DNA of 64,000 nt from assembly GCA_001556995.1 (NCBI GenBank), contig LSKF01000150.1, positions 1-64,000 of the forward strand, in the 5' to 3' direction. The notes under the pieces were generated by a model. That model was not told the DNA's origin. It ran no database searches and saw nothing but the letters and a program-made list of their open reading frames with translations. How positions within the stretch are numbered: the first letter of the stretch is position 1; each line of letters starts with the position of its first letter. The position numbers and the translations under genes were made by a program. Positions 1 through 32,018 of the stretch are shown here, piece after piece. The stretch is from Erythrobacteraceae bacterium CCH12-C2 (GTDB lineage Bacteria; Pseudomonadota; Alphaproteobacteria; Sphingomonadales; Sphingomonadaceae).

Positions 1-1180
1 CCCCCGAACCGCGCCCCGGCCCCACCGGAATGCCCTGCTCCTTGGCCCACTTGATGAAGTCGGCCACGATCAGGAAGTAGCCGGGAAAGCCCATCTTCAC
101 GATCACGTCGATCTCGAATTCGAGGCGACGCTTATAGGTGAGAATCTGGTCCCAAATCCCGTTCGTCCTGAGCTTGTCGAAGGACTGTTCTTGTTCTTCA
201 AGCGCTTCGGCGGAAGGCAAAAGCAGGGCTTCGACAAGCTCAGCCCGAACGGTGTCGGGGTAGTAGGGCGCGAGCCGTTGCACGAGGCCTTTGCGCGAGT
301 CCTCGGCCAGCATCCGCGCCTCGCCCGCAAGGTCGCCAGCAAGGCTCGGCAGGATCGGCTTGCGATAGGGCGGCGCGTAGGCGCAGCGCTGGGCGATCAC
401 TAAGGTATTGGCGGTTGCCTCGGGCAGATCGGCGAAGCTCTCCGCCATCATGCTTGCGGATTTGACGAAGGCCTGCGGGTTGGAGCGCGGGCGATCATCC
501 GCCTCGATCTGGGTGGAGTGGGCGATGCACAGCATGGCGTCGTGCGCCTTGTGCATATGCGGTTCGGCGAAGTTGGCGGGATTGGTGGCGACCAGCGGGA
601 GGCCCCGGACATAGGCCAAGTCAATCAGCGCGTCCTCGGCTCGTTCGGACACAGGGTCGCCGTGGCGGGCAATCTCGATGTACAGGCGACCGGGGAACAG
701 CGCTTCCAGCCGGTCAGCGAGCCGCGCGGCGGCCTCATACTGGCCTTCTGCGAGCAGCCGGGTGAGCCCGCCCTCGCCCGCGCCGGTCAGTCCAATCAGA
801 CCCTCGGTGCGGCCCGAAAGGTCGTCCAGCGTGACGTGCGGATCACGCTCCAACGGGCGATCAAGGTGCGCGGACGACACCAAGTGACAAAGATTGGCAT
901 AGCCAGCATCGTCCTGCGCAAACAGCGGCAGATAATCGACCCCGCCGCGCTCATCATCGCGCGCCACGCCGATCAACGCGCCAATAATCGGCTGCACCCC
1001 TTCAGCCTTGCACGCGGCAGCAAAGGGCATGACGCCGTAAAGCCCGTTGCGGTCGCAGATCGCGATGGCGGGAAAGCCCCGCTCCTTCGCCAGCTTGGCC
1101 AAATCCTTGGGATCGATCGCCCCTTCGAGCATCGAATAGGACGACAGCACGCGCAAAGGGACGAAGGGAGCGAAGGGCAT
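1..1180 (-). CDS. dnaE: DNA polymerase III subunit alpha, N-terminal part (cut by window edge)
   Basis: Replicative polymerase catalytic subunit. About 393 N-terminal residues are present; the rest lies beyond base 1. The start is the ATG at 1180 (MPFAPFVPLRVLSSYSMLEG). It opens the PHP domain, followed by the hallmark segments GLYGVMPF, GLTGAGEGG and, at the cut end, GFPGYFLIVADFI and VGPGRGSG at the start of the polymerase domain. Between the PHP domain and GFPGYFLIV, roughly residues 309-341 (bases 158-254) are not DnaE-like: they are a palindromic repeat read in frame (separate entry). The reading frame stays open through it, so the gene looks functional. Identification is firm; tolerance of the insert is inference. 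Confidence 0.95.
   Translation of the reverse strand, partial: MPFAPFVPLRVLSSYSMLEGAIDPKDLAKLAKERGFPAIAICDRNGLYGVMPFAAACKAEGVQPIIGALIGVARDDERGGVDYLPLFAQDDAGYANLCHLVSSAHLDRPLERDPHVTLDDLSGRTEGLIGLTGAGEGGLTRLLAEGQYEAAARLADRLEALFPGRLYIEIARHGDPVSERAEDALIDLAYVRGLPLVATNPANFAEPHMHKAHDAMLCIAHSTQIEADDRPRSNPQAFVKSASMMAESFADLPEATANTLVIAQRCAYAPPYRKPILPSLAGDLAGEARMLAEDSRKGLVQRLAPYYPDTVRAELVEALLLPSAEALEEQEQSFDKLRTNGIWDQILTYKRRLEFEIDVIVKMGFPGYFLIVADFIKWAKEQGIPVGPGRGSG
158..254. repeat. Palindromic repeat element, copy 1, inside dnaE
   Basis: Two imperfectly complementary arms, 158-187 and 224-254, share the core AGCTTGTCGAAG / CTTCGACAAGCT and bracket a unique centre of about 36 bases. Copies at 9537-9627 and 30703-30823 are intergenic. 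On the dnaE strand this copy is translated as VRAELVEA, a linker, then SFDKLRTNG, without a stop or frameshift. The location between the PHP and polymerase domains suggests a permissive surface linker. It resembles in concept the protein-coding palindromic elements of Rickettsia; the family name in this lineage is not something I can establish from the window. Confidence 0.85.
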
Positions 1181-2035: not shown

Positions 2036-2722
2036 TCAAGCTTCAATCAGCACGCCTTCCTTGAGGCGCACCACCCGGTCCATTTTTGCAGCGAGGCGTT
2101 CGTTATGGGTCGCAACCAGCGCGGCGCTGCCCTCGCCCCGCACCAGCGCGAGGAACTGGGCCAGCACCGCGTCTGAGGTGTGCTCATCAAGGTTGCCGGT
2201 CGGCTCATCCGCCAGCACCAGCGTCGGCCTGTTGGCGAGCGCGCGAGCGACCGCAACGCGCTGCTGCTCGCCCCCTGAAAGCTGGCTCGGCCGGTGGGTC
2301 AGGCGATGGCCGAGCCCGAGGCTGGTGAGCAGGCTATCAGCCCGCGCTTCACACGCAGCCCGCGGGGTGCCGAGGATCATTTGCGGCATGATCACATTCT
2401 CGCGCGCATCGAAATCGGGGAGCAGGTGGTGGAACTGATAGACAAAGCCGAGATGCTCGCGCCGGAGCCGGGTACGCTCGTCACCCGCCAAATCTTCGGC
2501 CCGCGTGCCCGCAAGGCTGATCGAGCCTTCGAACCCGCCTTCGAGCAGGCCGACGGCTTGCAGCATCGTCGATTTGCCCGAACCCGAGGGGCCCAGCAGC
2601 GCCACGATCTCGCCCGGCATGATATCGAGATCGACCCCGCGCAGCACCTCTATGCGCTGCCCGCCCTGCTCAAAGGCGCGCTTCAGACCGCGCAGGGCAA
2701 CGATCGGCTCCGGCCTATTCAT
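2036..2722 (-). CDS. lolD: Lipoprotein-releasing ABC transporter ATPase LolD
   Basis: The ATPase that powers extraction of mature lipoproteins from the inner membrane for delivery to LolA. It has 228 residues. The Walker A motif GPSGSGKST is at about residues 44-52, the signature LSGGEQQRV at about 148, and Walker [13 protein letters not shown] follows. The start codon lies 8 bases inside the end of the permease gene upstream, implying translational coupling and a LolC-LolD operon. The MacB/LolD branch is supported by the short single-domain length and the permease neighbour. Confidence 0.93.
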
Positions 2723-3953
2723 AGCGCAGCACCTGCACCGGATCGGTATTGGCGGCCTTGAAGGCGGGGTAGAGCGTGGCGAGGAAACTCATGCCCAGCG
2801 CAAGCGTGATGATCCCCAGCACCTCCCACGGATCGGTGCGCGACGGCAGGGTGGAGAGGAACCGCACTTCCGGGTCCCAAATCTGCTGGCCCGTGGCAAA
2901 GGCGATGAAATCGACAATCGGCTCGCGGAAAAACAGGATGATGAACCCCAGCGCCAGCCCCGTCGCCGCGCCAATCGCGCCGATGGTGCTGCCGGTGGTG
3001 ACGAAGATCTTGAGCAGGCTGCGCCGCGTCGCCCCCATGGTGCGCATGATTGCAATGTCGCGGGTCTTGGCGCGCACCAGCATGACGAGGCTGGAGAGGA
3101 TGTTGAACGCGGCCACCACCACCATGAAACTCAAGGCAAAGAACATCGCAACCCGCTCGACCTGCAAGGCTTCGAACAGCGCCGAGTTCATCGACTTCCA
3201 GTCCGCGATCACGGCACGCCCCGTCAGGCGCGCCGCGACAGGTTCGAGGATCTGGCCGACCCGGTCGGGGTCTTCGACCGTCACTTCGATCTGCGCGATG
3301 GAATCGCCCATCAGCAGCAGGCTCTGCGCGTCCTTCAGCGGCATCAACACGAACTTCTCGTCGAAGGTGTAGATGCCGACCTCATAGATTGCGCCAACCT
3401 CGTAGCCGACCTGACGGATCGAAGTGCCGAAGGGCGTGGTGCGGCCCTGCGGGTTGATGATGGTGATGGTGTCGCCCACCCTGAGACCAAGGTTCTGCGC
3501 CAGCTTGCTGCCGATCGCGACCGTCCGCGATCCGACCTTGAGACTGCCGATGTCGCCCAGCAGCACCTTGTCGCGCATCGCGGCAATGTCCTTATCGACA
3601 TGGCCGCGCACGAACACAACCTCCGTCCGGCCATTGAAGGCCGCGGCAAGCGGTTGCTCGATCAGCGGTGACGCGCTGACGACGCCCGGGGTCTGCTTCA
3701 GATCGGCGAGCACGCCCTCCCAATTATCGAGCCGCCCGCCATAGGCCTGCACCACTGCATGGCCATTTAGGCCGGTGATCTTGTCGAGCAGCTCCCCGCG
3801 AAAGCCGTTCATCACGCTCATGACCACCACCAACAGGGCGACCGACAGCGCGACCACGCCCACCGAAATCCCAGCGACCAGCGCAATGAACGCCTCCCCC
3901 TTGCCGGGCCAGAGGTAGCGTTTGGCGATCATCCATTCGAACGGGGAGAGCAT
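2715..3953 (-). CDS. lolC: Lipoprotein-releasing ABC transporter permease, LolC/LolE type
   Basis: Inner-membrane permease of the Lol release complex. I start it at the ATG at 3953 ([17 protein letters not shown]), giving 412 residues as is typical; an upstream in-frame extension to 4064 has no family character. The first membrane helix is at about residues 21-45 (with [10 protein letters not shown]), then a large periplasmic domain, then three helices in the FtsX-like C-terminal part ([15 protein letters not shown], the MRTMGA coupling region, and the terminal helix). Only one permease gene is present, as usual in alphaproteobacteria where it probably acts as a homodimer. Confidence 0.93.
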
Positions 3954-4187
3954 GAGAGGTGCGAGGCGACCCTGATGGTTAAGTGCGCTGCATGTAGGGT
4001 GCCCTCGCCCCACCCGCAATCCCGCGTGCCCCCCTGTCCCCCAATGTCGTAGCCTGAATGCCACCCTTGTCGCATAGCGGACGACAAAAAGCCGCCCGCT
4101 TGCCGCGTGCTTTGACTTGTAATTGATCCGTCACATCGCCATTGGGGCGGTGCGCTCCGGCGGCAATCGACACGGACAGGTCTGGTG

Positions 4188-8135: not shown

Positions 8136-9527
8136 CTAACCCTCTTTCATTGCCTTCAAGGCCGCCAGCGCCCGCTCGCGCGCGGCCTTGTGGGGCACGA
8201 TCTTGCGCGGATAGTCCGCAGGCCTGCGCCCGAATTCCTCTGGATCGTGGACGTAAGGCTCCTCCAGCCCCTTCAACTCCGGCACATAGGTGCGGATGTA
8301 GCGCGCGGCATCGAATTTCTCGGATTGCGAGAGCGGCGCCATGATCCGGCTGAACATGTTGCTGTCCACCCCTGTCCCCGCGGTCCACTGCCAGTTGGTG
8401 GCGTTGGAGGCGTAGTCGGCATCGCACAGCGTATCCCAGAACCACTTCTCGCCTTCGCGCCAGTCGATCAGCAGATGCTTGATGAGGAAGCTCGCGGTGA
8501 TCATCCGCACGCGGTTGTGCATCCACCCGGTCTGCCACAGCTGGCGCATCCCGGCATCGACGATCGGGTAGCCGGTGCGGCCCTGCTGCCAGGCTTTCAG
8601 GTCGCGCGCAGCGGCTTCGTCGTTGGCAGGGTCGCGCCACGGGAAGCGGTCGAAATCCTCGCGGTAGTTCTGCGTGGCGTAGCGCGGGAATTGCAGGATC
8701 GCGTTCTGCGAATAATCGCGCCAGATCAACTCGCCCTCGAAGGTCTCCCAGCCCTTGGAGGTGCGGTCCTTGAAGCGGTGCCAGATCTGGATCGGCGAGA
8801 TTTCCCCGAAATGCAGATGGGGCGAGAGGCGTGAGACCTTGTCGACGCTTGGCAGATTGCGCTTGTCGTCATGGTCATCGACATCGGCTTCCCATGCCGC
8901 AAGGCGCGCGTGAGCGGCCTCTTCGCCCACCTGCCAAAAGTCGCGCATGCCGCCCGCCCAATCGGGTTTGGTCGGGAGTAGGTTCCACGAGGCGAGGTCA
9001 TCGGAAGCGGGCCAAGTGGAGGGGGCTTCGAGCCGCTCGGGCGCGGGGACTTCAGCGCGCGGTGGGAATTCGGCCCGCACCGCGCGGCTGAAGGGCGTGT
9101 AGATCTTGTACTGCCCGCCGGTGCCGGTGGTGATGCTCCCCGGCGGCATCAGGTAATTGCCGTGGTATAGCCGAAGGTCGAGCGACTTCGCCAGCTTGCG
9201 CTCGGCATTGAGCCACCACGGTTCGTAATGGCAATTGGCGTGGATCGTGGCCGCGCCCGTCTCCGCCGCCAGCTTGGTCAGCTCCGCCACCGCATCGCCG
9301 CGCCGCAGGATCAGGTTGGAGCCGCGCGTTTCCAGTGACTGCGCAAGACTGCTGAGCGAGTGATGCAGCCACCAGCGCGAGGCGCCGCCATAGGCGTGGT
9401 GTTTAGGTGCCTCATCGTCGAGCACATAGACGCATACCACCGGCCCGGCCTTGGCGGCATGGTAGAATGCAGGATTGTCGGCCAGCCGCAGATCGCGCCG
9501 CAGCCATACGATTTGAGTAGAGGACAA
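8136..9527 (-). CDS. phrB: Deoxyribodipyrimidine photo-lyase
   Basis: Light-driven repair of cyclobutane pyrimidine dimers, a two-domain flavoprotein of about 463 residues. N-terminal antenna domain: TQIVWLRRDLRLADNPA. C-terminal FAD domain: TGYPIVDAGMRQLWQTGWMHNR, KWFWDTLCDADYASN and NWQWTAGTGVDS, all diagnostic of class I CPD photolyases. There is no ATG near the N-terminus. The TTG at 9527 lies 7 bases after GGAG at 9538-9535, and is preferred over the TTG at 9533, which has a spacing of only 1. That GGAG is the outer edge of a palindromic repeat. Confidence 0.93.
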   Translation of the reverse strand: MSSTQIVWLRRDLRLADNPAFYHAAKAGPVVCVYVLDDEAPKHHAYGGASRWWLHHSLSSLAQSLETRGSNLILRRGDAVAELTKLAAETGAATIHANCHYEPWWLNAERKLAKSLDLRLYHGNYLMPPGSITTGTGGQYKIYTPFSRAVRAEFPPRAEVPAPERLEAPSTWPASDDLASWNLLPTKPDWAGGMRDFWQVGEEAAHARLAAWEADVDDHDDKRNLPSVDKVSRLSPHLHFGEISPIQIWHRFKDRTSKGWETFEGELIWRDYSQNAILQFPRYATQNYREDFDRFPWRDPANDEAAARDLKAWQQGRTGYPIVDAGMRQLWQTGWMHNRVRMITASFLIKHLLIDWREGEKWFWDTLCDADYASNATNWQWTAGTGVDSNMFSRIMAPLSQSEKFDAARYIRTYVPELKGLEEPYVHDPEEFGRRPADYPRKIVPHKAARERALAALKAMKEG

Positions 9528-9534
9528 AACCAAA

Positions 9535-9538
9535 CTCC
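9535..9538 (-). promoter_or_regulatory. Probable phrB ribosome-binding site at the edge of a repeat
   Basis: Read on the minus strand, GAACGGAG ends the palindromic repeat at 9537-9627, and its GGAG is 7 bases upstream of the TTG at 9527, the best-placed start for the photolyase. The other two repeat copies end in GAACGG followed by T or G, so the fit here depends on the junction bases. This is read directly from sequence; its use in translation is inference. Confidence 0.55.
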
Positions 9539-9627
9539 GTTCGGGCTGAGCTTGTCGAAGCCCTGCCCTTCCTTGCTTAGCGAGGCAAAAGTGAAGTGCA
9601 GCCCTTCGACAAGCTCAGGGCGAGCGG
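9537..9627. repeat. Palindromic repeat element, copy 2, upstream of phrB
   Basis: Arms at 9537-9566 and 9598-9627 carry CTGAGCTTGTCGAAG and CTTCGACAAGCTCAG, with a 31-base centre. It fills almost all of the 119-base gap between the photolyase start and the end of the DUF457-type gene, both on the minus strand. A transcript through it would form a long stem-loop immediately before phrB. Confidence 0.88.
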
Positions 9628-9646
9628 ATGTGGGGACGTAATGCGC

Positions 9647-10618
9647 CTAACCCGAGGTCGGTTCCTCACTCAAGCGCTCGCACCTCACATCGGGCAGCGC
9701 GACCGCAAACCGATCCCGCGCGCGCGGATCGTAGAAGCGGGCGTCGTAAAGGATCACCGAGCCATCCGCCGCCCGCGTGGCAAAGGGCGCGCGCGACCAG
9801 AACAGGAAGGCGTCGAGTTGAGAGTTGGTTCGGCGGGCGGCGGCGAGGTCGGGCGTTGCGCAACGCTGCTTTGGATCGACGAGTGGTCGGCCAGCGCTTT
9901 GCAAGTATGGGACTTGCGCGCCTTCCGATTTCATATCCGGCCAATTACGACCTACCCGGATCACCTCCCGCTCCCAGAAATAGAACGGGACTGGCATCGA
10001 GATGCGCTCTTTGCCTGGGCCATCATATGGTTCGATACCGAAAGGCTGATGCGTGATTGCCCCGTTCACCCCAATATACGCCACCACCGCCACAATCCCT
10101 ACCCGCGCAGGCCGCGTCCACGCACGGCCGCGCTTCTCCCGCCGCCGCGACACCCACACGCTGCCAATCAGCAGCGCCCAAAGCCACGGGTCGATGATGA
10201 ACAGCGTATCGCCATAGAACCATTGCGAGGAAAACGGCTCCAGCAGCCGGATGCCATAGACGTTGAGCCAGTCGAAGAACGGGTGGCTGAGGCAGCCGAT
10301 AAACGCCATCGCATAAAGCCAGCCAAAGCGCACCGGCAGCCGCGCCTCGGGTCGGGTGCCGCGCTGCGTTTGCCAGCGGTCGAACGCCCACAATATCCCC
10401 GCCAGCATCAACGGCAGCAGCACCAGCGCGGGCGGGCCGTGGGTGATGCCTCTCCGAAACGCGAGATGCTCGGTACCCTCCAGCCAGAAAAAGCACGCTG
10501 CGTCCACATCCGGCAGGTTCGCGCCGATGATCAGCGCGGGCATCGCAAGGCCCGTGGTGCGCTTCAGCCCCGCCTGCCCCAGCACCGCGCCGACAAGGCT
10601 ATGTGTCAGATTGTCCAT
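9647..10618 (-). CDS. Membrane metal-dependent hydrolase, DUF457/YdjM type
   Basis: A 323-residue protein starting at the ATG at 10618 (MDNLTHSLVGAVLGQAGL), which matches the canonical family opening; a longer in-frame start at 10651 is less likely. Conserved family elements are the His of THSLVG, the Asp pair of NLPDVDAA, GITHGP and the His of GCLSHPFFDWLN, presumed metal ligands. Several hydrophobic segments lie between residues 70 and 190 (for example ALVLLPLMLAGILWAF), so it is an inner-membrane protein; the remaining 130 residues look extracytoplasmic. Substrate unknown. Confidence 0.85.
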   Translation of the reverse strand: MDNLTHSLVGAVLGQAGLKRTTGLAMPALIIGANLPDVDAACFFWLEGTEHLAFRRGITHGPPALVLLPLMLAGILWAFDRWQTQRGTRPEARLPVRFGWLYAMAFIGCLSHPFFDWLNVYGIRLLEPFSSQWFYGDTLFIIDPWLWALLIGSVWVSRRREKRGRAWTRPARVGIVAVVAYIGVNGAITHQPFGIEPYDGPGKERISMPVPFYFWEREVIRVGRNWPDMKSEGAQVPYLQSAGRPLVDPKQRCATPDLAAARRTNSQLDAFLFWSRAPFATRAADGSVILYDARFYDPRARDRFAVALPDVRCERLSEEPTSG

Positions 10619-10729
10619 AGTCTTGCAGGCTAGCGCGCCCCCCGCAGTCAAGCGAGTGGAAATGCACTTGGCACCAGCGCCCGCCCTCGCCTATCGCACC
10701 GGCAAACAGACCTGCAGGAGAGCGCACAG

Positions 10730-29045: not shown

Positions 29046-29771
29046 ATGGGACACATCCTCGTTACCGGATCAAGCCGCGGAATAGGCCGGGCCGCGCTCG
29101 AAGCTCTTGCTGCGCGCGGCGTGCCAGTGATCGGCCACGCCTCGCGCCCACAGCCCCCAGTGCCCGGTGCGCCGCCGATCATCGCCGCCGATTTCGGCGA
29201 TCCCCTCTCGGTGCAAGCCGTGTGGGATCAGGCGCTTGACCTTGCGGGAGGCGAAATCGACGTGGTGGTCAACAATGCCGGGCGGTTCGAGGCCAACCGG
29301 CTGGATCGCTCGGATATCGAGTGGCTCGATGCATGGGAGGACACCATGCGGGTCAACCTCACCAGCGCCGCGCAGCTCTCGCGCTTCGCCGTCCTGCACT
29401 GGCAGGCGCGCGGCTTCGGCGGACGGCTGGTGCATGTGGCGAGCCGCGCGGCCTATCGCGGGGATTCGCCGGCGCATTGGCATTACGCGGCGGCCAAGAG
29501 CGGCATGGTGGGAATGCACAAGACCATCGCCCGAGCCTATGCCAAGGACGGCATCCTCAGCTTCGCGGTCACTCCCGGCTTTACCGACACCAGCATGGCG
29601 GATGATTATCTCGCCAGCCGTGGCGGGCCGGGGCTGCTGGCGGATATCCCGCTGGGCCGCGTGGCGACCCCGGACGAGATCGCAGCGATCATCGCCTTTT
29701 GCGCGCTCGACGCCCCGCCGAGCATGACCGGCGCGGTGATCGACGCCAACGGAGCGAGCTTTGTCCGCTGA
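29046..29771 (+). CDS. Short-chain dehydrogenase/reductase
   Basis: A 241-residue SDR. The cofactor motif TGSSRGIG is at about residues 7-14; NNAG is in DVVVNNAGRF; the catalytic Ser is in HVASRAAY and Tyr/Lys in YAAAK. The C-terminal GAVIDANGASFVR is FabG-like. Substrate unknown. Its last 11 bases overlap prmA, which starts at a TTG inside its end, so the two are translationally linked. Confidence 0.87.
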   Translation: MGHILVTGSSRGIGRAALEALAARGVPVIGHASRPQPPVPGAPPIIAADFGDPLSVQAVWDQALDLAGGEIDVVVNNAGRFEANRLDRSDIEWLDAWEDTMRVNLTSAAQLSRFAVLHWQARGFGGRLVHVASRAAYRGDSPAHWHYAAAKSGMVGMHKTIARAYAKDGILSFAVTPGFTDTSMADDYLASRGGPGLLADIPLGRVATPDEIAAIIAFCALDAPPSMTGAVIDANGASFVR

Positions 29772-30687
29772 CGCCACTTGGAAACTCTCTGCTTTCGCTC
29801 CCAAGCCCATCGTGCAGGCGGCGCTGCTGGCGCATGACCTGATCGACGACTGGGATTACGATTTGGTCATCGCGGGGCGCGAGGTCGCCGAAGACCAGCC
29901 CGACGATTGGGTGCTCGAAGGCTGGTATCCGAGGAAACCCGGCAAGGCGGAGAAAGCCGCGCTCGCCGGGCTCTTCGAAGGGCGCGCGCCGAAGATCACC
30001 GTCGAAGAACTGCCCCCCGCCGACTGGGTGACGCTGAGCCAGCACAACGCCCCCCCGATCCGCGCCGGGCGCTTCCATGTCCACACCCCCGACTATCCCG
30101 CCGATCCTGACCTGATCGACTTCGTGATCCCCGCCAGCCAAGCCTTCGGCACCGGCCAGCACAAGACCACCGCCGGGTGCCTTGAAATGCTCGGCAGCAT
30201 GAAGGCGAGCGGGGTGACCGCGCGCAACATCGCCGATATTGGCACCGGCACCGGGTTGCTCGGTTTTGCGGCGCTAGCGCTGTGGCCGCGGGCGACTTGC
30301 ACGCTCACCGATATCGATCCCGTCTGCACCGGCGTCGTTGAGGAAAATGCGCGGCTCAATGGTGTTACGCTCGGGCCAAGGCCGGGCGAGGCGGTGATGG
30401 TGGTGGCTGACGGGATGGACGATCCCCTGATCCAGCTGCGCGGGCCCTATGACCTCCTGATCGCTAACGTCCTCGCCGGGCCGTTGGTGGAGCTCGCCCC
30501 TGATTTCGCCCGCGCCGTGCCCCCGCGCGGCAGCTTGCTGCTGGCGGGCCTGTTGGCAGGCGATCAGGAAGCGGCGGTCAAGCGCGCAATGCAGCTGGCG
30601 GGCTTTCGCATGGCATCGCGGTTGCAACGCGGCGACTGGGCCATCCTTTGGCTGCGGCGGCGGGCCGATTGGAGGCGGGCGCGCTGA
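29761..30687 (+). CDS. prmA: Ribosomal protein L11 methyltransferase
   Basis: SAM-dependent methyltransferase that modifies ribosomal protein L11; 308 residues. The SAM motif ADIGTGTGLLGFAAL is at about residues 159-173, preceded by AFGTGQHKTTAGCLEML, and followed by the NPPF-like motif replaced by LLIANVLAGPLVELAP, which is typical of PrmA. I use the TTG at 29761, which lies 6 bases after GGAG within the preceding SDR gene; no ATG is available at the right position. The C-terminus is Arg-rich. Confidence 0.9.
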   Translation: MSADATWKLSAFAPKPIVQAALLAHDLIDDWDYDLVIAGREVAEDQPDDWVLEGWYPRKPGKAEKAALAGLFEGRAPKITVEELPPADWVTLSQHNAPPIRAGRFHVHTPDYPADPDLIDFVIPASQAFGTGQHKTTAGCLEMLGSMKASGVTARNIADIGTGTGLLGFAALALWPRATCTLTDIDPVCTGVVEENARLNGVTLGPRPGEAVMVVADGMDDPLIQLRGPYDLLIANVLAGPLVELAPDFARAVPPRGSLLLAGLLAGDQEAAVKRAMQLAGFRMASRLQRGDWAILWLRRRADWRRAR

Positions 30688-30702
30688 TTTGCCTTGTCTC
30701 CA

Positions 30703-30823
30703 TTCTTCCTGAGCTTGTCGAAGGACTGCCTTTCTTGAGCGTTTGTGCTCACTATCTGAAGCGAAGGACGGCCGTAGGGCGTTCGCCCACCTTCGGTTCC
30801 GACAAGCGCAGGGCGAACGGTGA
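30703..30823. repeat. Palindromic repeat element, copy 3
   Basis: Arms TTCCTGAGCTTGTCGAAGGA (about 30705-30724) and TTCCGACAAGCGCAGGGCGA (about 30798-30817) match the two other copies with several changes. The centre is longer and holds its own small hairpin (GGGCGTTCGCCC). It fills the 143-base gap between the convergent ends of prmA and the sigma factor gene and may act as a terminator there. Confidence 0.75.
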
Positions 30824-30830
30824 TTTTGCG

Positions 30831-32018
30831 CTAGGTCAGCGCCGCACGCTGCCGTTCAAGCCACAACCGCTCAGCCCGCGGTGGCCCAAGCGTCAGCGCG
30901 GCATCGAGCGCGGCCCGTGCCTCCTCGTGCCGACCCACCCGCGCCAGCAGATCCGCGCGCGCGGCATGCCATGGCCGGGCCAGCGCAAGGCGTTCGGCGG
31001 GCAGCGCCTCCAGCGCCGCAAGCCCGGCCTCGGCCCCCTCGACCTGCGCCAGCGCCAGCGCCCGGCTCAGCGCCACCATCGGTGACGGGCGCAGCACCAG
31101 CAGCACATCATAAAGCCGCAGCATCGCTCCCCAGTCCGTCACTCCATCAAATGCGCGGCGCGCATGGGTGAGCTGGATCGCCGCCATCACCTGATAGGGG
31201 CCGGAGCGCCCTGCCCGTGCCGCTGTCTCCATAAACCCCCGCGCCCGTTCAATCCGCGCATAGTCCCAGCGCCGCACGTCCTGCTGCGAGAGCGGCACCA
31301 TTGCTCTTTTATCGTCCAGCCGCGCTGCGCTGCGAGAGCGCGCCAGCAGCACCAGAGCGGCAAGGCCAAGCGCCTCGGGCTCTTGAGGCAGAAGCTCCGC
31401 CACCAGAAGCGCTAGCCGCTCAATCTCTGCACCCAGATCATCGCCCAACGCCGCCGACAGCTCCCCGCCCGCATCGGCATAGGCGGCGGTAAAGGCGAGT
31501 TCGAGCGCGAGCAGCACCGCGCCAAGCCGCTCAGGCCAGTCGCGGCGCGGCGGGAGTTCGAACGCGATCCCCGCCTCGCGCACCTTGGCCTTGGCGCGGG
31601 TGATGCGCTGGAGCATCGTCGGCTCGCTGACCACAAACAGCTGCGCGATCCGGTCGGTCGGCAGCCCGCAGATGACCTTGAGCGCAAGCGCCGCGCGCGC
31701 TTCGGGGCTGAGCGCGGGGTGGCAGCAGATGAACAGCAGCCGCAGGCGTTCGTCCGGGATCGGCTCGGGCAGGGTCAGGATGTCGGCCATGTCGGTCACC
31801 TCTGCCAGCGCCTCGCCGGTGCGCGCTTCGCTCGCGCGCTTGCGGATCGCATCCAAAGCCCGCCGCTTGGCCGCGACGAACAGCCAGGCCGGCACATCGC
31901 GCGGCGGTGCGGGCAGCGCGAGGCAGCGGGCCGCCGCCTCGGCGAAGGCATCCTCCGCCGCGTCCAAATCGCGCAACTGGGCAGCAAGCGCGGCCACCAC
32001 CCGGGGCCGCGCCGCCAT
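30831..32018 (-). CDS. ECF-family RNA polymerase sigma factor with long C-terminal extension (ECF42-like)
   Basis: A 395-residue sigma factor. Region 2 (LRDLDAAEDAFAEAAARCL, then WLFVAAKRRALDAIRKR) and region 4 (LSPEARAALALKVICGLPTDRIAQLFVVSEPTMLQRITRAKAKV) cover about residues 1-165. The remaining 230 residues are a helical, TPR-like extension (RPWHAARADLLARVGRHEEARAALDAAL) typical of the ECF42 group. Just upstream lies a YciI-like DGPF protein, the usual partner. The ATG at 32018 is used; the frame is open to a CTG at 32045 beside the partner's stop, so a slightly earlier non-ATG start is possible. Confidence 0.87.
   Translation of the reverse strand: MAARPRVVAALAAQLRDLDAAEDAFAEAAARCLALPAPPRDVPAWLFVAAKRRALDAIRKRASEARTGEALAEVTDMADILTLPEPIPDERLRLLFICCHPALSPEARAALALKVICGLPTDRIAQLFVVSEPTMLQRITRAKAKVREAGIAFELPPRRDWPERLGAVLLALELAFTAAYADAGGELSAALGDDLGAEIERLALLVAELLPQEPEALGLAALVLLARSRSAARLDDKRAMVPLSQQDVRRWDYARIERARGFMETAARAGRSGPYQVMAAIQLTHARRAFDGVTDWGAMLRLYDVLLVLRPSPMVALSRALALAQVEGAEAGLAALEALPAERLALARPWHAARADLLARVGRHEEARAALDAALTLGPPRAERLWLERQRAALT

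Follow-up and report, generated by a model that had tools for sequence, protein, structure and literature searches.

The window, by which we mean the whole stretch of 64,000 nucleotides analysed here, begins within dnaE1, the gene for DNA polymerase III alpha, which runs on the minus strand. A sequence-only reading of this DNA had claimed that a palindromic element with complementary arms interrupts dnaE between its PHP and polymerase domains and is translated in frame. Both observations were borne out: an inverted repeat lies at 159-193 / 218-252, and the minus-strand frame crosses it without a stop. The features on which the analysis draws are listed below.

2..1180, minus strand: dnaE1 (DNA polymerase III alpha), N-terminal 393 amino acids in an open frame, cut by the window start
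159..252, minus strand: complete head-to-head REP dimer inserted in dnaE1, an inverted repeat encoding about residues 310-341 (VRAELVEALLLPSAEALEEQEQSFDKLRTNG)
159..188, plus strand: REP arm 2, whose minus strand encodes SFDKLRTNG; stem triplets GTC/GAC intact
189..222, minus strand: dimer spacer in dnaE, used for spacer comparison
223..252, minus strand: REP arm 1, encoding VRAELVEAL; stem triplets GGG/CCC intact
2036..2722, minus strand: presumed lolD, a species-tree marker independent of dnaE
2715-4064, minus strand: lolC frame, paired with lolD as species-tree marker
9537..9627, plus strand: second full dimer, between likely genes at 8136-9533 (minus) and 9647-10651 (minus)
30700..30820, plus strand: third dimer, degenerate, with arms at 30700-30723 and 30797-30820, between likely genes at 29761-30687 (plus) and 30831-32018 (minus)

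A profile search of the window DnaE placed the PHP domain (PF02811) at residues 9-173 and the start of DNA_pol3_alpha (PF07733) at residue 348, so the insert falls between the two. The best NCBIfam match for this frame was the DnaE equivalog PRK05673, under the whole-protein cut-off because the window holds the N-terminus only. The full-length DnaE of a relative, Porphyrobacter sp. TH134 (L002), carries PHP, pol3_alpha, finger and HHH_6 domains in order and passes the DnaE equivalog cut-off. In a sequence alignment, E. coli DnaE follows this protein up to residue 310 and resumes at 348, with E. coli residues 312-319 facing the insert. DnaE is single-copy, with one match per genome at E up to 1e-60 in each of the 181 genomes, out of 196 in our order search, that gave a match; the insert-bearing copy must therefore work.

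The insert measures ~94 nt and ~32 residues, and its inverted repeat consists of 35-nt arms with 83% complementarity, 24 nt apart. RNA folding of positions 150-262 yielded -60.8 kcal/mol, compared with -32.2 in shuffles (z -8.65). Searching with a 24-nt arm pattern and allowing 3 mismatches gave six matches in the window and none in 100 shuffles; the six form three dimers: that in dnaE and those at 9537-9627 and 30700-30820. Both of the latter lie between likely genes, in agreement with the two intergenic copies read from the sequence. The second dimer is flanked at 8136-9533 by what looks like a gene for a DNA photolyase and at 9647-10651 by one for a YdjM-like membrane protein; the third has neighbours that resemble prmA (29761-30687) and a gene for a sigma factor (30831-32018). 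The sole frames that cross these two dimers, 9596-10633 and 30648-31085, are mechanical calls that also overlap the flanking likely genes.

Repeat family and candidate mobilisers

Across the window and eight related genomes, 47 dimer rows share one layout of head-to-head arms around a variable spacer. In 82 of 94 arms, the base triplets on the two sides of the core CTGAGCTTGTCGAAG are complementary to each other, compared with a mean of 22.3 and a maximum of 36 in 2,000 draws of shuffled pairings, and both dnaE arms retain the complementary stem. Copies of the 13-mer core number 0-195 across 18 genomes (45 in G001, 37 in G002, 115 in G009 and 195 in G016) and 0-3 with a reversed-pattern control; these counts describe relatives' genomes and not the source genome. 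By a crude codon score, coding sequence lies on both sides in four of the 47 rows: the dnaE of the window, the dnaE of G002, and loci L231 and L136. The window element is thus REP-like, being short, multi-copy, mostly intergenic and arranged in head-to-head pairs.

In L231 (G001; about 1469-1539), within what we take to be a valyl-tRNA synthetase-like gene, the same dimer is in frame in another reading frame (VRPEPVEG ... STSSGR). In L136 (G002; about 1501-1571), presumably a dihydrolipoamide acyltransferase-like gene, the dimer lies within a protein linker.

According to the text of Di Nocera et al. 2013 (PMC3733652), REPs of the CGTC superfamily have stems of 8-9 bp, loops of 4-5 nt and no dedicated transposase. 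The window family likewise has no dedicated transposase beside its repeats. Its single arms, however, fold with a 5-bp stem and an 11-nt loop, and by stem the window element is not a CGTC REP. Assignment to the GTAG superfamily was also rejected: no GTAG was seen by eye at the arm ends, and 15 of the 18 genomes are without RAYT. The RAYT protein (PF01797), present in the other 3 of 18, was rejected as mobiliser, since none of its eight loci, one of which is cut by a contig end, has a good copy of the window family adjoining it; three have lone two-mismatch cores nearby.

A different repeat, around CCTCCGACTTCAGTCGGATACTGGCTTCAGCC, was seen near the RAYT genes of L111, L112, L114, L115 and L118, and is perhaps part of a REPtron of its own. 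In Erythrobacter cryptus DSM 12079 (L031) the window family amounts to two core matches; the text on RepRanger gives 3,055 REPs for that strain (PMC12306157), which is not the same measure as our core count.

Short and long linkers among relatives

Among 80 relatives' loci found via DnaE, the linker between the PHP and polymerase domains is short in 63 and long in 17, and no stop occurs in the matched part of any. The sequence-only reading had placed the insertion in a tolerant-looking linker and expected close relatives to show a clean gap there. The 63 short linkers support an insertion, probably at a tolerant site, and they contradict the opposite case in which every relative carries a similar-length non-repetitive segment, though some lineages do have such segments. 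The gap itself is not clean. In Erythrobacteraceae, long and short forms also disagree at about 12 residues of the right flank, so the insertion in this family is not a clean join.

The spacer indicates how far one insertion is shared. Its identity among the window, L001, L002 and L003 is 0.91-0.98, compared with a mean of 0.58-0.59 and a maximum of 0.76 against genomic spacers (a baseline restricted to spacers of 25-70 nt and leaving out one dnaE dimer). The window's own spacer matches those of L001, L002 and L003 at 91-96% and averages about 58% against genomic spacers. Because the spacer is the same, these four trace to one insertion event. The sequence-only reading is thus supported in its core, an in-frame insertion, but the insertion is not confined to one species. 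The spacer of Aurantiacibacter xanthus (L019) reaches 0.74-0.78, where unrelated genomic spacer pairs reach 0.82, and by this comparison L019 may possibly share the insertion.

On a tree of lolC and lolD, the latter being the presumed lolD frame and the former a frame with a database match annotated as a lipoprotein-releasing ABC transporter permease, the 17 long rows are scattered and require 14 changes, a count at least as low being reached in 102 of 500 shuffles. Trees of four DnaE parts, from which 7 of 75 rows were excluded, include 14 long rows and each required 10 changes, 2-8 of them forced by branches with good support; 5-10 of 500 shuffles were as low, indicating weak clustering. A recombination tract sought with these four trees was not resolved, all parts giving 10 changes. 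The pattern among the relatives reflects either an allele moved between species, frequent loss, or repeated gain, and the data do not separate these.

A single dnaE insertion of this family might account for the long linkers that carry it, having been passed among Erythrobacteraceae by short-tract homologous recombination or inherited and often lost. This reading is compatible with our preferred explanation below, and we regard it as a serious possibility without expecting it. The common spacer of the window and L001-L003 speaks for it, as does the scatter of long and short states on the lolC/lolD tree together with some clustering on the DnaE-part trees. However, the low-divergence tract ends mostly at the edges of the insert, and a single allele leaves the different palindrome families or frames of other lineages unexplained.

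At least three palindrome families in one DnaE linker

The PHP-palm linker of DnaE is occupied across Sphingomonadales by at least three palindrome families, in differing frames and in one linker doubly. Evidence for this comes first from DNA. We fetched 40 loci, hand-picked from an evenly drawn order search, and excluded six without a readable anchor (L204, L214, L216, L217, L218 and L223). The linker is short (up to 39 aa) in 27 of the 34 readable loci and longer in seven, three of which hold palindromes (L185, L187 and L188) within dnaE frames open across 1,170-1,211 residues. Their inverted-repeat scores exceed the maximum of 200 codon shuffles: 19 against 12 in L185, 15.5 against 11 in L187 and 28 against 12.5 in L188. 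L185 and L187 carry a dimer of GAGCGAAGTCGAG, with 106 and 24 core copies in their respective genomes and none in controls.

In L188 the linker holds a CTGGACCCCGG element whose arms are 33 nt long. Its core has 12 matches (up to 3 mismatches) in its own genome, two of them the dnaE arms, none in the control, and 6-12 in each of three other genomes searched. With an 8-bp stem, a 4-nt loop and one extra outer pair it fits the stem and loop of CGTC REPs; a CGTC tag was seen in just one of its arms, on the reverse strand.

Proteins extend the pattern. After two added protein searches the DnaE set comprised 393 usable rows; DnaEs that lacked anchors or fell below a length of 1,050 aa (430 aa in the case of L185-L224) were excluded. 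Of these rows 360 are database proteins, in which a palindrome is deduced from peptide signatures; the DNA itself was checked in the loci only. Repeat-derived peptide motifs number 210 in 11,468 linker residues, compared with 3 in 429,309 other DnaE residues. A linker repeat signature occurs in 125 of the 393 DnaEs, nearly all from Sphingomonadales; this fraction is not an incidence, because the database proteins were gathered with insert-bearing queries. Such queries would not remove repeats outside the linker, and almost none occur there. The idea that a repeat inserted in this polymerase is rare does not survive these counts, which come from a pre-selected set.

Mapped on the protein tree, the ELVEA signature in frame A required 40 changes (35 forced by well-supported branches), ELVEA in frame B 23 (20), SEVEG 24 (20) and PGLRRG 10 (9); gains are here indistinguishable from losses. 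Two of these four classes, ELVEA frame A and SEVEG, are more clustered than shuffles, and some carriers therefore share an insertion. In 25 listed pairs of proteins whose aligned cores are 89-97% identical, the two members carry different linker repeats or only one of them has a repeat; the linker of P0317 contains two copies of one repeat type.

By eye, the linkers of P0247, P0254, P0256, P0263 and P0283 each contain more than one repeat-like stretch, possibly the result of serial insertion.

Decay, rival explanations and known systems

Long linkers differ in how much of the DNA repeat they retain. Inverted-repeat scores exceed the maximum of 200 codon shuffles in L001 (17.5 against 12.5), L003 (15 against 13), L019 (18 against 11) and L070 (20 against 12), and lie barely over codon shuffles in L002 and L047. 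No repeat above codon shuffles was detected in the similar-length linkers of L004, L016, L026, L028, L050, L067, L068, L079, L150, L155 and L158. At the protein level the series from repeat-like to non-repeat segments appears graded by eye. Across 13 pairs the linker has a dN/dS of 0.05-0.40, which means that purifying selection acts on these long segments. Constraint is weaker in the linkers of decayed pairs, at 0.14-0.40, than in the remainder of the gene, at 0.02-0.16.

We consider it highly probable that a REP-like palindrome, a head-to-head dimer of ~94 nt, inserted in frame into the PHP-palm linker of dnaE1, and that this linker is tolerant and has been repeatedly invaded. Insertions would land widely, and in an essential polymerase the survivors would be those in this linker and in frame, so that the linker would record repeated invasions. 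An inserted segment may then persist, slowly becoming an ordinary protein segment in some lineages: the DNA repeat would decay, while length, amino-acid pattern and purifying selection stay. Judged from sequence, linker tolerance is probably the best account of the pattern, and a functional role for the segment is also possible.

One such role would lie in the nucleic acid, the palindrome being kept as a DNA or mRNA hairpin (a protein-binding site, attenuator or replication signal) with the peptide as a by-product. Four pairs show fewer synonymous changes within the insert than elsewhere in dnaE: window-L001 (2 of 33 compared with 110 of 327; Fisher p 0.0006), L001-L003 (3/33 and 110/317; p 0.0017), window-L003 (5/33 and 105/304; p 0.03) and L019-L047 (3/22 and 96/240; p 0.02). 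In window-L001 and L001-L003 the dip is limited to the insert block, and flanking blocks are at the gene's usual level. These are four among 28 pairs tested, however; three pairs with L002 are non-significant (p 0.1-0.43), two with the decayed L004 go the opposite way (p 0.046 and 0.038), and in window-L003 the block after the insert is also low.

Copy number bears on the same question. The 13-mer core is abundant in genomes whose dnaE arms are intact (45, 37, 115, 29, 195 and 40 copies) and mostly scarce in those with decayed inserts (1, 1, 0, 0, 19, 1, 15, 2, 12, 9, 45, 24, 3, 0, 2 and 2; median 2), a comparison that omits L030, whose contig ends in the arm and whose genome has 11 copies. 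Short-linker genomes have 0 to 50. Mann-Whitney tests gave p 0.001 for intact against decayed, 0.03 for intact against short and 0.22 for short against decayed, but the genomes are related, so the association is no more than a lead; moreover G163 (45 copies) and G173 (24) carry decayed inserts. Since many inserts have decayed, the hairpin is dispensable, and retention of the palindrome as DNA or RNA is in our judgement unlikely.

A role in the protein is also conceivable. The PHP domain holds the proofreading subunit, and repeat insertions in this linker might be favoured because they alter PHP-polymerase coupling and produce heritable, reversible changes in replication fidelity. We regard this as speculative and rather improbable; if true, selfish palindromes would repeatedly supply variation to a core part of the replication machinery.

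An old native linker with chance repeat likeness would fit the similar-length segments without a repeat in L004, L016, L026, L079 and L155, but it is very improbable given the complementary stems in both window arms, inverted repeats above codon shuffles in close relatives, the graded series seen by eye and the short linkers that are the common state in the order sample. An assembly artefact can be practically dismissed: the contig of L030 does break off within the dnaE arm, which is what assembly halted by a repeat would produce, but the same kind of in-frame insert occurs in separate assemblies, including those of Porphyrobacter sp. TH134 and Aurantiacibacter xanthus.

A repeatedly invaded, tolerant linker provides a natural series within an essential enzyme: the empty linker, the repeat insertion, the shared decaying insertion and the fully diverged segment. 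With this series, the old idea that new protein segments can arise from mobile palindromes becomes directly testable. The linker also marks a place at which a replicative polymerase can take in new sequence, and its variants are a ready allele set for fidelity tests.

Intragenic REPs are known from other systems. Di Nocera et al. describe, in the text of their survey, GTAG and CGTC REPs that form head-to-head dimers, are mostly intergenic and sometimes lie in frame in genes, often those for DNA replication and repair (dnaE2; dnaE of R. conorii) and, in sphingomonads, genes for a tRNA synthetase and a tRNA pseudouridine synthase (PMC3733652). The window family resembles these in its head-to-head palindromic dimers and in-frame intragenic copies, and differs in the stem and loop dimensions given above. 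The dnaE passages of that main text do not name sphingomonad dnaE1.

The parallel that had been drawn with Rickettsia palindromic elements is apt, since REP and RPE-4 insertions in Rickettsia dnaE are in print (PMC3733652, PMC3767692). Passages of the latter describe an in-frame RPE-4 of 114 bp in R. japonica dnaE (RJP_0891) and RPE-6 in R. felis dnaE, as well as RPE-4/6/7 of different types at one locus with diverged 'extended' inserts in orthologues, for which a hot spot or a shared origin was left open (PMC3767692). Like the window element, these are palindromes carried in frame in ORFs that include dnaE; unlike them, the window DnaE has no match among the NCBIfam RPE models at E up to 1. 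In our class search the RPE4 model matched in 7 of 385 genomes, in 5 of them over the cut-off. Its matches include repeats in several genomes of 2.4-2.9 Mb, among them G430, G503 and G518; Rickettsia genomes are generally smaller than this.

Coxiella MITEs (PMC5896051) and enterobacterial RU elements (PMC2759123) are, as summarised in those papers, small mobile sequences found in genes and linked to protein sequences; by description they are other element types in other hosts. The main text of a survey of bacterial DnaE contains no word beginning with 'palindrom' (PMC3919608). Literature searches with the DNA cores or FDKLRTNG returned nothing related by title, and nothing on a palindromic insertion at the DnaE PHP domain or on Erythrobacter palindromes. 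Among the papers listed, judged by title or abstract start, no same-site multi-family hot spot in a replicative polymerase was found. As far as these searches reach, intragenic REPs, including those of Rickettsia dnaE, were already known, and the same-site multi-family hot spot in a replicative polymerase is new. The nearest case in the text of Di Nocera et al. is that of two Xanthomonas recB genes with different REPs at about the same site (PMC3733652); the DnaE linker goes beyond it, with several families lodged at a single position of a replicative polymerase in lineages across Sphingomonadales.
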